Below, piece after piece: positions 19,918 to 39,945 of a DNA stretch of 64,000 nucleotides. A model generated the notes under the pieces. The model saw only the letters and a program-made list of their open reading frames with translations, searched no databases and had not been told where the DNA came from. This DNA is from Fibrobacter succinogenes (GTDB lineage: Bacteria > Fibrobacterota > Fibrobacteria > Fibrobacterales > Fibrobacteraceae), in assembly GCA_902800345.1 (NCBI GenBank), contig CADCDO010000002.1, positions 1 through 64,000 on the forward strand. Reading direction: 5' to 3'. Position numbers and translations under genes: made by a program. The number at the start of each line of letters is the position of its first letter. Position 1 is the first letter of the stretch.

Positions 19918-19978
19918 CGATGTAAAAGCAACCTAATCAACAGGTTAGGGCATCCAAATCGGCAAAGAAAAGGACTTT

Positions 19979-20743
19979 ATGCAAACTGATACCCCCATTC
20001 TTTCTATTCAAAATTTGCGCCGCGATTTCAAAATGGGTAACGAAACCGTCCATGCGCTACGCGGAGTGAGTTTCGATATTTATAACGGAGAATTCGTCAC
20101 CATCATGGGAACCTCGGGTTCGGGAAAATCCACCATGCTGAACATTCTCGGATGCATGGACAGGCCTACCTCAGGACACTACATATTAGATGGAGAACAC
20201 ACCGAGACCCTCAAACGCGATGCCCTCGCAAAAATCCGGAGGCAAAAAATCGGCTTCGTTTTCCAAAGCTACAACCTGCTCAGCCGCACGACCGCCATCG
20301 AAAACGTGGAACTCCCATTATTATATAATCCATCGATATCGGCTGCAGAACGCCACCATCGGGCCATCGAAGCGCTCAAGAGAGTCGGGCTCGAAGGTCG
20401 CATGAATCACTTGCCGAACCAGCTTTCGGGCGGTCAGCAACAGCGCGTCGCCATCGCGCGCGCCCTCGTAAACGATCCCGTCATCATCCTCGCCGACGAA
20501 GCGACAGGAAACCTCGACACGCGTACCAGTTACGAAATCATGATGATATTCCAGGAACTGAACCGACAGGGGAAGACAATCGCATTTGTCACGCACGAAC
20601 CGGACATTGCGACATTCTCGAGCCGCACGATTACCCTCAGGGACGGTTTAGTGAAAAAAGATGTCATTAACGAAAATGTGCAGGACGCGAAAGAAGCGTT
20701 CGAAGCACTACCACCCCCGGAAACATTCGATGAAGAAGATTAG
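19979..20743 (+). CDS. ABC transporter ATPase, MacB/LolD type
   Basis: 254 residues from ATG 19979 with AAGGA seven bases upstream. Walker A GTSGSGKSTM, Q-loop FVFQSYNLL, signature LSGGQQQRVAIARAL, Walker B VIILADEATGNLD and the H-loop THEPD are intact. Family members power mechanotransmission-type exporters (MacB, LolCDE) with a separate permease, encoded next at 20842. A C-terminal acidic extension of about 25 residues is unusual but common in this type. A MacA-like adaptor is not adjacent, so the substrate (peptide, lipoprotein or drug) is undefined. Confidence 0.92.
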   Translation: MQTDTPILSIQNLRRDFKMGNETVHALRGVSFDIYNGEFVTIMGTSGSGKSTMLNILGCMDRPTSGHYILDGEHTETLKRDALAKIRRQKIGFVFQSYNLLSRTTAIENVELPLLYNPSISAAERHHRAIEALKRVGLEGRMNHLPNQLSGGQQQRVAIARALVNDPVIILADEATGNLDTRTSYEIMMIFQELNRQGKTIAFVTHEPDIATFSSRTITLRDGLVKKDVINENVQDAKEAFEALPPPETFDEED

Positions 20744-35757: not shown

Positions 35758-36114
35758 TTAGGCTTTCTTCTCCGCTGTCTTGGCATCAGCCTTCCACGGC
35801 GTAAGCCCGACAACATTATCGACCGGCAGAGAGAACGCAATTCCCTGCCCCATCGTATCGAGGCCAGCCTTCTCGTAAAGCGAACGCAAAACTGCATCTT
35901 TCACGTTTAGCGGCACAAGAATCATCACGACTTCTTTTTCGGGTTGTATAGCGATATGGAAAAACGATTCCGCTTCCTTGTTAGCCGTTCCACGAGCGTT
36001 CAGCACGGTACCACCACGAGCCCCGGCATCCTTTGCGGCTTCCATTACAGTATCGGAGAATCCGTTGTTCACAATGCAAATAATGAGTTCATGTGTATTC
36101 GTAGCCATGATCAT
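35758..36114 (-). CDS. PII-like regulator, copy 2 of a DUF1538 operon
   Basis: 118 residues, or 116 from the second Met. A short PII/GlnB-like fold is suggested by the order ELIICIVNNGFSDTVMEAA, GARGGTVLNARGT, a compact T-loop region, QPEKEVVMILVP and the final strand GIAFSLPV. No uridylylation-site Tyr motif is visible. Its ATG overlaps the stop of the other PII-like gene (ATGA). The pair follow a DUF1538 membrane gene in the same direction. PII-like proteins bind nucleotides and often gate a neighbouring transporter; that role here is inference. Confidence 0.75.
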   Translation of the reverse strand: MIMATNTHELIICIVNNGFSDTVMEAAKDAGARGGTVLNARGTANKEAESFFHIAIQPEKEVVMILVPLNVKDAVLRSLYEKAGLDTMGQGIAFSLPVDNVVGLTPWKADAKTAEKKA

Positions 36115-36524
36115 CCTCTCCTTACCTGGGAACGGTTATCGCTCAAAAAATTAAACACGGACTTGCCAATCACGCTTGCCATCGGAATCGTGTAGGCAAT
36201 TCCCTTTCCATTCACAATCGTCTTGAACTTTTCTTCAAGGCATTCCAAAACGGCAGGCACATGGTCTTCGCCAATGATGCTTATAATCACCGCACGTTCA
36301 GGGTCTGCAAGCCCAAGTGCCGTCATGATTTCACGCGGAGCCGTGCCATGACCGTAAAGAACAAATTGCATATTCGCTCCAAACGACTGGATATAGTCCA
36401 TGTAAAAGTCGGCCTTCGAACGCATCACCGTTGTCACGAGAATTTTCAGGCGATTCATCGAGACCTTGGAGTGAACTCTTTTGCGCACACTCGGTTTCTT
36501 TGTCAAATTCATTTCTTCTGCCAT
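36111..36524 (-). CDS. PII-like regulator, copy 1 of a DUF1538 operon
   Basis: 137 residues. A basic N-terminal tail of about 25 residues (MAEEMNLTKKPSVRKRVHSK) precedes a PII-like core: LKILVTTVMRSKADFYMDYI, an ARRxx-poor T-loop region, PERAVIISIIGEDHVPAVLECLEEKF, then KGIAYTIPM. It has the same final strand pattern as its neighbour (GIAYTIP / GIAFSLP) but the sequences differ widely elsewhere, so it is an old duplication or two separate acquisitions. It starts 8 bp after the DUF1538 gene. Confidence 0.7.
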   Translation of the reverse strand: MAEEMNLTKKPSVRKRVHSKVSMNRLKILVTTVMRSKADFYMDYIQSFGANMQFVLYGHGTAPREIMTALGLADPERAVIISIIGEDHVPAVLECLEEKFKTIVNGKGIAYTIPMASVIGKSVFNFLSDNRSQVRRG

Positions 36525-36532
36525 TGCCGCCC

Positions 36533-38068
36533 CTACACAAAGTCAATAATTTGTTCGTCATCAGCATCCTGCAAGCGACGCATCATCATCCTGTTGCGCC
36601 AAAGCCTTGCAACAATCGCCTTGAAGCCAAGAACCTGAATCGTAATGAGCGGAGTCATCGCGACCATCGCCACAATGCCAAAAGCATAGTTCAAAATAGA
36701 ATCACCGCCATCGTGAATCACGGAGCATGCCCCAATAGCAAGCGGCAGAATAAAGCTCGAAGTCAAAGGACCGCTCGCCACGCCACCCGAGTCAAACGCA
36801 ATCGCCGTATAAAGTTTCGGCACAAAGAACGAGAGTCCAAGCGAAATAAAGTATCCCGGCAACAGATAATAAATAATCGGGAACCCGATAATAATACGCA
36901 ACATCGAAAGCCCAATCGAAATGCCGACACCCACCGAAAGGGCAATCAGCATGGAACGTTTCGTCACGAGTCCACCCGTCACTTCTTCGACCTGCTTGTT
37001 GAGCACATGCACCGCAGGTTCCGCAAGCACCACCACCATGCCAATGATAAAGCCCGCTGTCACAAGCGCATGCGGACGTGCAGCCAGTTCACGGCCAATT
37101 TCAAAACCAACCGGCATGAATCCGACTGTCACCGCCGTAAGGAAAATCACAAGACCCACGAACGTGTAACAAATTCCGACGCCCACTTGAATCAGTTTTA
37201 CCAGCGGAAGTTTAAGCACTGTCCACTGCAATGCACAAAAAAACGCGACAATCAGCGCAAGCGCAACGAAAACCTCTTTCGCCACTTCCATCACCGTCGG
37301 CAAGAAATGTTCACCAAGACTCGCTTCCACCGAATATGCCGCCGTCGAAAGTTCATAAGTCAAGTCGCCCTTCGAAAAAACGACCAAGCCCATCAGCGCC
37401 AAAATCGGGCCCACAGAGCAAAGCGCAATCAGGCCGAAACTGTTTTCCGAAGCGTTCTTGCCCCCAATCGCACCCGCGACACCCACGCCAAGCGCCATGA
37501 TGAACGGCACCGTAATCGGCCCAGTCGTCACGCCGCCCGAGTCAAACGCAAGCGGTACAAACGCGTTCCGCCCGACAGACACCATGAGCATCCCGAGCAT
37601 GAACAGCACCATGTAAAAGAAAATGATAATCAGCGAAAGGTCTTTCTTGAACACGATTTTCAAAATCGCAAGTAGCAAGAAAATCCCGACGCCCACACCG
37701 ATCGTCGAAATCAGCAAAATCGGCTTCACGGCATTTTTCACCTGTTCTGCGAGCACGGACAAATCCGGTTCAGCGACCGTAATGAGAACCCCCATCACAA
37801 AGCAAACCGACACGAGCAGCAAAAGTCTGCGCGACTTGGTAAGCCCCGAACCCACATACGCCCCCATCGGCGTCATGGCAAGATCCGCCCCCAAGTTAAA
37901 AAGCCCTATCCCCACAATCAAAAAAAAGGCGCTAATCGAAAAAACGACCAGTTCCTTCACTGAAAAAGTAACAAGCGGAGTACGCGACACCAGCAACACG
38001 ATAAGCGTGATGGGCAACACAGAGGCAAAAGCCTCTCTCAATTTTTCATAAAGGATTTTATGCATCAC
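36533..38068 (-). CDS. DUF1538 membrane protein with two internal repeats
   Basis: 511 residues with about 12 membrane helices. Two halves repeat the same signatures: ITVAEPDLSVLAEQV versus VVLAEPAVHVLNKQV, and PLAFDSGGVTTGPITVPF versus AIAFDSGGVASGPLTSSF. This is a fused pair of DUF1538 domains. Two-gene DUF1538 proteins (UmpAB) have been reported to act as Na+(Li+,K+)/H+ antiporters in Halomonas, to my knowledge, so a cation/proton exchanger is the best guess. Conserved Asp in the two FDSGG motifs, set in membrane helices, is what an ion site would need. It heads an operon with two PII-like regulators. Confidence 0.82.
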   Translation of the reverse strand: MMHKILYEKLREAFASVLPITLIVLLVSRTPLVTFSVKELVVFSISAFFLIVGIGLFNLGADLAMTPMGAYVGSGLTKSRRLLLLVSVCFVMGVLITVAEPDLSVLAEQVKNAVKPILLISTIGVGVGIFLLLAILKIVFKKDLSLIIIFFYMVLFMLGMLMVSVGRNAFVPLAFDSGGVTTGPITVPFIMALGVGVAGAIGGKNASENSFGLIALCSVGPILALMGLVVFSKGDLTYELSTAAYSVEASLGEHFLPTVMEVAKEVFVALALIVAFFCALQWTVLKLPLVKLIQVGVGICYTFVGLVIFLTAVTVGFMPVGFEIGRELAARPHALVTAGFIIGMVVVLAEPAVHVLNKQVEEVTGGLVTKRSMLIALSVGVGISIGLSMLRIIIGFPIIYYLLPGYFISLGLSFFVPKLYTAIAFDSGGVASGPLTSSFILPLAIGACSVIHDGGDSILNYAFGIVAMVAMTPLITIQVLGFKAIVARLWRNRMMMRRLQDADDEQIIDFV

Positions 38069-38178: not shown

Positions 38179-38270
38179 TAAAGTCTAGTCAATAGCTATT
38201 GAAAATGGCTCAAAAAAAATTTTATCATTCATGCAACCACCGCAAAACACAGCGCATCAAAAGTAACGAA

Positions 38271-38816
38271 ATGGACGAAAAAGTCATCATAAAGAAGATT
38301 CAACAAGGAAGCCGCGAAGCGCTTGGCATGCTGTGGAAGTCCCACAGCACAAACGTGCTGAACCTAGCGTTCAGAATGCTCAAGAACCGTGACGAAGCCG
38401 AAGACGTACTGATGGACATTTTCGTATCCGTTCCCGGCAAGATCAAGAACTTCCGCGGTGAAAGCGCTCTCAACACCTGGTTGTTCCGCCTTACCGTAAA
38501 TGAATGCCTCATGAGGCTGCGTTCCAAGAAACGTCACGCAGAACTCGAAGGCGAGCACATCGAGTTTCTGACGGCATCCGCCATCGGGAGCAAACATGAA
38601 GAGCAGATAGACTATGACCCGGAACTTTTAGAATTTGGACTGTCGAAACTCTCTGCCGAAACGCGAAGCATGCTTTGGCTAAAGGACGCCGAGGAACTCG
38701 GCATCAAGGATTTGTCCGAAATCTACAACATGCCCGAAGGGACTATCAAAGCAAGACTCAGTCGAGCAAGGACCGTTGTCAAGAACTATTTACAGGAGAA
38801 CGTGAACTATGCGTGA
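38271..38816 (+). CDS. ECF RNA polymerase sigma factor
   Basis: 181 residues from ATG 38271 (MDEKVIIKKIQQGSREALG, the usual ECF start). A frame extension to ATG 38205 would add 22 non-conserved residues. Sigma-2 region: NRDEAEDVLMDIFVSV and RGESALNTWLFRLTVN; sigma-4 region: GIKDLSEIYNMPEGTIKARLSRARTVVKNYL. It directs transcription of a small regulon, probably including its own operon. It overlaps the downstream membrane protein gene by 8 bp, the usual arrangement for a sigma and its anti-sigma. Confidence 0.92.
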   Translation: MDEKVIIKKIQQGSREALGMLWKSHSTNVLNLAFRMLKNRDEAEDVLMDIFVSVPGKIKNFRGESALNTWLFRLTVNECLMRLRSKKRHAELEGEHIEFLTASAIGSKHEEQIDYDPELLEFGLSKLSAETRSMLWLKDAEELGIKDLSEIYNMPEGTIKARLSRARTVVKNYLQENVNYA

Positions 38817-39150
38817 TCAAATCGATTTTTCAAGGCTCGAAAGAATCAAGCCCAAGGAAGGTTCCTGGGAAACGGTCTGCGCAAGACTCGATTCTTCTAG
38901 AAAAAACAAATTCATAGACTTCATACAAACACGCACCAAGTACGCACTTGCAGCAAGCTTTGTCGCCATAGCGTTTATTACGGCATTTATTGCCGTCAAC
39001 CGAATGGATTCCGAAACAGTCCTCGTCCAAGGTATCGCAAGTGATGAACTCGTTTCGTGGTATAACGATCTCGGTGAAACCAACGACGATGAATTGGAAA
39101 ATTTAGACACATACGGTTCCATCAGCTATTTATTACAGGAGACAAAATAA
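38809..39150 (+). CDS. short membrane protein, probable anti-sigma factor
   Basis: 113 residues: about 45 cytoplasmic residues (WETVCARLDS helix), one membrane helix (about 44-64, YALAASFVAIAFITAFIAV) and a 48-residue acidic outer part (NDLGETNDDELENLD). No zinc anti-sigma (HxxxCxxC) motif is present. The gene starts inside the sigma gene and ends inside the next gene start (TAATG). This size and topology resemble CnrY-type anti-sigma factors. I do not recognise a family from sequence alone. Confidence 0.7.
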   Translation: MRDQIDFSRLERIKPKEGSWETVCARLDSSRKNKFIDFIQTRTKYALAASFVAIAFITAFIAVNRMDSETVLVQGIASDELVSWYNDLGETNDDELENLDTYGSISYLLQETK

Positions 39151-39869
39151 TGAAGGACTCTACAAAAACATTCATTGCAAGCCTCATCATCTTTGCTTGC
39201 TCCCTCGGCTTCTTCATTGGAGCCTTCGCATTCAACAACTCGGGCTGTTCATCCTGTGCAAACAAGGCCGCCACCTGTTGTTCAAAAGGCGCCTCATTCG
39301 AAAAAGGCATCTGCTGTTCCAAAAAAGCACCCTGCGGTCCAGGCTGCAAATGTCCGCACTGCATGCGTCATGGCGAATTCCGCGACGGTCCCCATCATGG
39401 GCCGCACTTTCACGGTGAACCGCCCCGCGAACCACATTTCAAAGGCGACCACTTCAAGGAAGGCAATCCGTTCGATAAAAAATTCGACAAGAAGTTTGAC
39501 TTCAAAAAAGGCTCCGACTTCATGGACTCCGTTCTGCAAGTCACTCACGAACAGAAGGCTGCGCTAGAACAGCAACGCAAGGTGATGGATTCTACGCTTA
39601 AAGTCCTCCGCAAACAAAAGAAGGAAGCCGAAAAGACCCTCCGCGAAGCTCTTGACAGCAACGACGAAAAGAAAATCGCAGCGGCTAAAGGCGGCATTCT
39701 CAAGGCCCAAGAAGCATTGCTCAACCACAGAATCAGCGGAGTGAAGGAATTCAACAAGATTCTCACCAAAGAACAGCTGGAAAAGTTCAAATCGATGCAG
39801 TTCGACCGCATGAAAAAAATGCACGACAAAGACTCCCGCGAGCGCCGCGGTCCAGAACACAATCACTAA
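39150..39869 (+). CDS. Cys/His-rich, Spy/ZraP/CnrX-like metal-binding membrane-anchored protein
   Basis: 239 residues. One N-terminal membrane helix (about 8-28) is followed by ten Cys between residues 33 and 71 (33, 36, 43, 44, 55, 56, 62, 66, 68, 71) in CxxC, CC and CGPGCKCPHC patterns. A His-rich stretch follows (His 74, 82, 83, 86, 88, 96, 101). The rest (about 120-239) is long helices like the Metal_resist/Spy fold, with a RERRGPEHNH tail. It is the third gene of a sigma/anti-sigma operon and has the right shape for a periplasmic sensor that releases the anti-sigma on binding metal. The metal is unknown. Confidence 0.75.
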   Translation: MKDSTKTFIASLIIFACSLGFFIGAFAFNNSGCSSCANKAATCCSKGASFEKGICCSKKAPCGPGCKCPHCMRHGEFRDGPHHGPHFHGEPPREPHFKGDHFKEGNPFDKKFDKKFDFKKGSDFMDSVLQVTHEQKAALEQQRKVMDSTLKVLRKQKKEAEKTLREALDSNDEKKIAAAKGGILKAQEALLNHRISGVKEFNKILTKEQLEKFKSMQFDRMKKMHDKDSRERRGPEHNH

Positions 39870-39910: not shown

Positions 39911-39945
39911 AAGCCTCCGGCCAAAAACCGGAGGCTTTCTCTTTT
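39911..39945 (+). terminator. strong terminator of the sigma-factor operon
   Basis: AAGCCTCCGG pairs perfectly with CCGGAGGCTT over 7 bases, followed by TCTCTTTT. It lies 42 bp after the operon. Confidence 0.9.

Follow-up and report, generated by a model that had tools for sequence, protein, structure and literature searches.

A conserved sigma–anti-sigma–sensor operon

We analysed a 64,000-nucleotide stretch of Fibrobacter succinogenes DNA (the window), in which three overlapping genes occupy positions 38271-39869. Coordinates, translations and Pfam matches confirm the layout given in an earlier note on this DNA, with overlaps of 8 bp and 1 bp. The operon has the following features, all on the forward (+) strand.

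38232..38261, +, predicted autoregulatory ECF promoter, TGCAACC-N16-CATCAAA (exact pattern); the sigma start codon lies 9 nt past its end
38271..38816, +, ECF sigma factor, 181 aa (Pfam Sigma70_r2 and Sigma70_r4_2)
38809..39150, +, short transmembrane (TM) anti-sigma candidate, 113 aa; 8-bp overlap with the sigma gene (alignments)
39150..39869, +, candidate periplasmic sensor with a membrane anchor, 239 aa; CnrX fold, assigned to the LTXXQ family; 1-bp overlap with the middle gene
39159..39239, +, sensor N-terminal membrane anchor, residues 4-30; hydrophobic AlphaFold helix, no conserved lipobox
39240..39500, +, sensor Cys/His-rich head, residues 31-117; low pLDDT, predicted disordered, hypervariable
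39501..39842, +, sensor four-helix domain, residues 118-231; pLDDT mostly 86-98 (Foldseek; ligand mapping)
39913..39940, +, probable intrinsic terminator of the operon, gcctccgg...ccggaggc followed by a T-rich stretch, read from the sequence

The first gene encodes an ECF sigma factor, as the earlier note had proposed, with regions 2 and 4 both exceeding the Pfam cut-off and orthologues at 55-95% identity in an alignment from 29 genomes. Also as described there, the 113-aa middle protein has a single TM segment; because it contains one Cys and no His, it lacks the zinc anti-sigma motif HxxxCxxC. Alignment divides this anti-sigma candidate into a cytoplasmic part of about 45 aa, with the conserved sequence IDFSxLERxxPxxxSWxxVCARLD, one TM segment, and a periplasmic tail of about 45 aa, with conserved SWYxxLG...SYL. 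The protein matches no Pfam or NCBIfam family, and its profile found no relative among PDB sequences. In PMC7406223 a length of <50 aa served to separate off anti-sigma factors that might belong to class II, and the cytoplasmic part found here falls within that rule. The structure model of the protein is poor (pLDDT 62, pTM 0.20), too poor to show helices, so we only infer a class II (CnrY-like) assignment.

The third gene encodes an LTXXQ protein, predicted to be membrane-anchored, and its translation shows ten Cys between residues 33 and 71 as well as a His-rich stretch, in agreement with the earlier description. It barely exceeds the curated cut-off of LTXXQ family PF07813 (E=3e-5; 25.0 bits against 24.3), a family matched at E<=0.01 by 46 of 48 sensor homologues; Metal_resist (PF13801) is matched by 22 of the 48. 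AlphaFold predicts a helix at residues 4-30, which we read as the anchor. Model confidence is low between about residues 32 and 110 and high over residues 118-231, which are modelled as a four-helix domain. An Rfam search gave no match. Next to the triad and divergent from it, the minus strand encodes a polytopic membrane protein of 511 aa together with small proteins (36533-38068 and 36111-36524).

We assessed the conservation of the triad in related genomes. The sensor gene is present in 35 of 61 genomes searched, comprising 35 of the 37 from the window's genus, and was not found in any of the 24 searched from outside it. The complete triad, in the order sigma, anti-sigma, sensor, occurs at 30/30 loci checked. 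With the sensor gene in 35/61 genomes and the whole triad at every locus checked, the three genes are not a chance set of open reading frames. A profile of the anti-sigma candidate matched 91 of 168 genomes of the phylum, distributed over seven genera of one family only, the Fibrobacteraceae. A second collection yielded 54 Fibrobacteraceae operons, from records named Fibrobacter, Fibrobacteraceae or Fibrobacterales, and all three genes are present in 54/54. The homologous triads that the earlier note had suggested seeking in related genomes are thus found throughout the Fibrobacteraceae, and outside this family we recognised neither an anti-sigma nor a sensor partner for the sigma relatives examined. 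Two genomes initially taken to lack both triad and motif (G011 and G018) were dropped from that category, since near-motifs precede macB in G011 and both macA and macB in G018; the missing triads are therefore probably assembly gaps. The signalling operon is real and conserved.

Promoter motif and predicted efflux regulon

The pattern TGCAACC-N16-CATCHAA precedes the sigma gene in all 54 Fibrobacteraceae operons, in an identical 29-nt register. In 53 of them the sigma start codon lies 7-11 nt past the motif, and because the -10 element ends so close to the start codon the sigma transcript probably has little or no leader. The motif is equally close to the start at several macB and tolC sites. 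Summed across the 61 genomes, the motif has 152 matches and the reversed pattern 2; within the window, a search allowing three mismatches was at chance level. Among 25 distant sigma relatives from other phyla, GCAACC lies within 100 nt upstream in 16, compared with 0/25 for the reversed hexamer, and the full TGCAACC-N16-CATCTAA occurs in two, one from Armatimonadetes and one from Geosporobacter. These data suggest, at the level of sequence, a promoter signature common to a broad ECF clade. ECF relatives at roughly 24-33% identity (L154, L162 and others among L154-L179) carry GCAACC or the whole motif.

We fetched 100 motif sites, all outside the 30 known triad loci. Efflux-related genes or DUF3300 directly follow 71 of these sites: macA (32), an RND adaptor (16), the macB ATPase (9), tolC (7) or DUF3300 (7). 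A match before a distant ABC protein (L220) was left out of the nine macB sites. The rest comprise the sigma gene of a further genome (1), an outer-membrane-like protein (2) and unclassified sites (25), several of the last apparently inside coding sequence. The DUF3300 protein recurs in the predicted regulon (L066, L096, L098, L218, L227, L228, L258 and the window's genome). Possible additional regulon members follow the motif at L084, L221, L080, L087 and L086: one small hydrophobic protein, a related pair of outer-membrane-like proteins and one secreted protein.

In the window's own genome, the motif is present, exactly or in closely similar form, at six units: the triad, macB, tolC, macA, RND and DUF3300. 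The motif is exact at the triad, macA and RND sites; at the macB and tolC sites T is replaced by A and the spacer is one base longer. The units outside the triad are as follows, with C2, C5 and C15 denoting contigs.

19927..19957 of the window, +, predicted promoter before macB, AGCAACC-N17-CATCCAA, a variant of the sigma motif (see also sister-genus macB homologues)
19979..20743 of the window, +, ABC ATPase resembling MacB and predicted to belong to the regulon; shares 90% identity with the MacB ATPase of L068
20842..22047 of the window, +, MacB/FtsX-like permease, downstream partner; closely resembles the L068 permease
C2 about 81456, tolC unit, motif variant
C5:99657, macA unit, exact motif
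C15:124522, RND adaptor and permease, exact motif
C15:40187 (site) and C15:39299-40114 (gene), DUF3300 unit, TGAAACC, one mismatch

The L068 ATPase has MacB as its best NCBIfam match, and the L068 permease matches MacB_PCD and FtsX. The motif-linked RND permease scores 894 bits against the multidrug model versus 293 against the heavy-metal model. Among the classified motif-target families we recognised neither metal-efflux nor oxidative-defence genes.

We also compared the distribution of the motif with that of the triad across genera. In the triad-bearing sister genera g18, g19, g23 and g24 the motif precedes sigma, macB, RND adaptor or tolC genes. In the genera with motif matches that lack the triad (g17 and g21), no checked motif site precedes a recognised efflux gene. 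A profile search found no anti-sigma in the g17 genomes, and a sigma search of g17, g16 and g21 genomes, run with no positive control, was empty, consistent with the lack of an anti-sigma in those genera. Every g17 genome searched has a macB homologue, and GCAACC is absent upstream of macB in the four g17 genomes in which the start could be located, whereas the macB genes of triad-bearing genomes have the motif. The predicted transcription by the sigma factor of its own operon and of the efflux genes is supported by this sequence-level co-occurrence.

Sensor fold and Cys/His-rich head

In a Foldseek comparison of the sensor model with the PDB, the best 13 matches were all CnrX (probability 1.00, TM-score 0.66-0.71 by target), with E values of only 0.015-0.18, so that even the best, 0.015, is above 0.001. 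No Spy, CpxP or ZraP structure was among the 50 matches listed. The likeness emerged by fold comparison only: the sensor profile found no relative among PDB sequences, and a sequence-profile comparison of sensor with CnrX gave nothing (probability 0.1). The CnrH/CnrY/CnrX-like architecture put forward in the earlier note is borne out, both by the triads across the family and by the closest solved folds of the sensor domain.

We mapped the CnrX metal ligands, which we take to include H42, H46, E63 and H119, onto 55 sensor orthologues aligned with a CnrX reference sequence identical to PDB entries 2y39 and relatives. Three MAFFT modes agreed that 0/5 ligands are kept. H42 corresponds to sensor residue 122, which is variable and mostly Pro; H46 to a near-invariant Asp, D126 (54/55); E63 to a near-invariant Arg, R143 (53/55); and H119 to G197 (51/55). 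M123, reported to be necessary for CnrX signalling (PMC7689651), corresponds to residue 201, which is Leu, Phe or Ile.

The head is the variable part of the protein. In the window's sensor its Cys are at positions 33, 36, 43, 44, 55, 56, 62, 66, 68 and 71, with a further C17 in the membrane helix. Among the 55 orthologues the number of Cys in the head ranges between 1 and 16 (median 4; two or fewer in nine), so a Cys-rich head is not common to the sensor family. The helical domain contains one Cys in total over the 55 proteins and is constant, as are the promoter and regulon, in contrast to the hypervariable head Cys. In the L101-L109 sensors the head resembles an expanded CCKKK unit, and the count varies from 4 to 16 among these close orthologues, whose sigma factors are >80% identical to that of the window. 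The earlier proposal that the head is the metal sensor is not supported, given the range of Cys counts, the replacement of all five CnrX ligands and the multidrug-type targets. Metal binding by the Cys/His head is possible, as is a metal or thiol input through it, though not as the conserved core.

Candidate inputs, known systems and proposed mechanism

We considered two alternative inputs to this regulon. If the Cys/His head bound Cu(I), Zn, Cd or Ni and thereby released the sigma factor, the pumps would answer metal toxicity; the ten Cys and His-rich strand of the head, the CnrX fold, the Metal_resist matches in 22/48 homologues and the induction of BaeR targets by zinc or copper in enterobacteria (PMC3160322) all point this way. 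We nevertheless regard such a metal sensor as unlikely, because nine of 55 orthologues have two or fewer head Cys, the CnrX ligands are replaced, the classified targets include no recognisable metal-efflux gene and the RND pump is multidrug-type. Fibrobacter is anaerobic and the head Cys are paired, features that would suit a thiol switch forming disulfides upon exposure to oxygen or electrophiles, with the sigma factor running an oxidative envelope response. MacAB pumps are reported to guard other bacteria against oxidative stress (PMC8546677, PMC7403778). Such a redox sensor is very improbable, since the Cys cluster is not conserved and we recognised no gene for oxidative defence in the classified motif targets.

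The motif could instead belong to another sigma factor or regulator, of which the triad is merely one target, and the link between sigma factor and motif is indeed drawn only from autoregulation and co-occurrence. The motif stands before the sigma gene in 54/54 operons, though, the GCAACC box recurs before the sigma gene in distant relatives, and in g17, where neither sigma nor anti-sigma was found, macB lacks the motif; we consider this explanation most improbable. The likely reading of the sequence evidence is a transmembrane switch of CnrYXH architecture that controls multidrug-type efflux in response to envelope or toxicant stress, with the head as an accessory. We also lean towards the view that its CnrX-fold sensor, in which a near-invariant Asp and Arg replace the metal site, was repurposed for a non-metal envelope or toxicant cue that activates the ECF-driven multidrug efflux regulon.

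CnrYXH of Cupriavidus metallidurans is a Co/Ni system (PMC7689651, PMC4598750). It shares with the Fibrobacter operon an ECF sigma factor, a very short TM anti-sigma, a helical periplasmic sensor that is anchored in the membrane and has a matching fold, and, by prediction in Fibrobacter, an RND pump under control. The genes of CnrYXH are ordered cnrY-cnrX-cnrH, whereas the Fibrobacter order is sigma, anti-sigma, sensor at 30/30 loci. The Fibrobacter sensor also differs in lacking all five CnrX metal ligands and having a long variable Cys/His head, and the predicted targets are MacAB-TolC and a multidrug-type RND pump, not cnrCBA or an HME-type pump. The BaeSR core regulon comprises spy, mdtA and acrD (PMC3160322), and there too an LTXXQ-family protein is co-regulated with multidrug RND pumps. 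However, BaeSR is a two-component system and Spy a periplasmic chaperone, whereas the Fibrobacter LTXXQ protein is predicted to be membrane-anchored and is encoded in the regulator operon. Because Bae-type envelope systems are Zn- or Cu-inducible in some studies (PMC3160322), a drug-efflux regulon does not exclude induction by metal. An Azospirillum brasilense operon of RpoE8, a hypothetical protein and a periplasmic heavy metal sensor, reported only as up-regulated upon RpoE6 overexpression (PMC12826043), has the same gene types in the same order, as compared by gene description only.

In the mechanism we propose, the short anti-sigma would use two short helices in its cytoplasmic part to keep the sigma factor at the membrane, in the class II, CnrY-like manner, and the four-helix domain of the sensor would hold the conserved periplasmic tail of the anti-sigma. 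Envelope damage or a toxic compound would change the sensor and so free the sigma factor, which would then transcribe its own operon together with the MacAB-TolC, AcrA/AcrB-type RND and DUF3300 genes. The Cys/His head would be a fast-evolving accessory that may tune the response or add inputs (metal, thiol), with the conserved core of sensing lying elsewhere.

For Fibrobacter, which is among the main digesters of fibre in the rumen, the analysis predicts a concrete efflux regulon and names its promoter, regulator and targets. It also suggests that a protein carrying the annotation periplasmic heavy metal sensor can act in signalling that involves no metal; such annotations therefore need to be checked at the ligand positions. 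If confirmed, the regulon would offer a route to understanding the tolerance of fibre-degrading rumen bacteria to ionophores, tannins and other compounds from plants.
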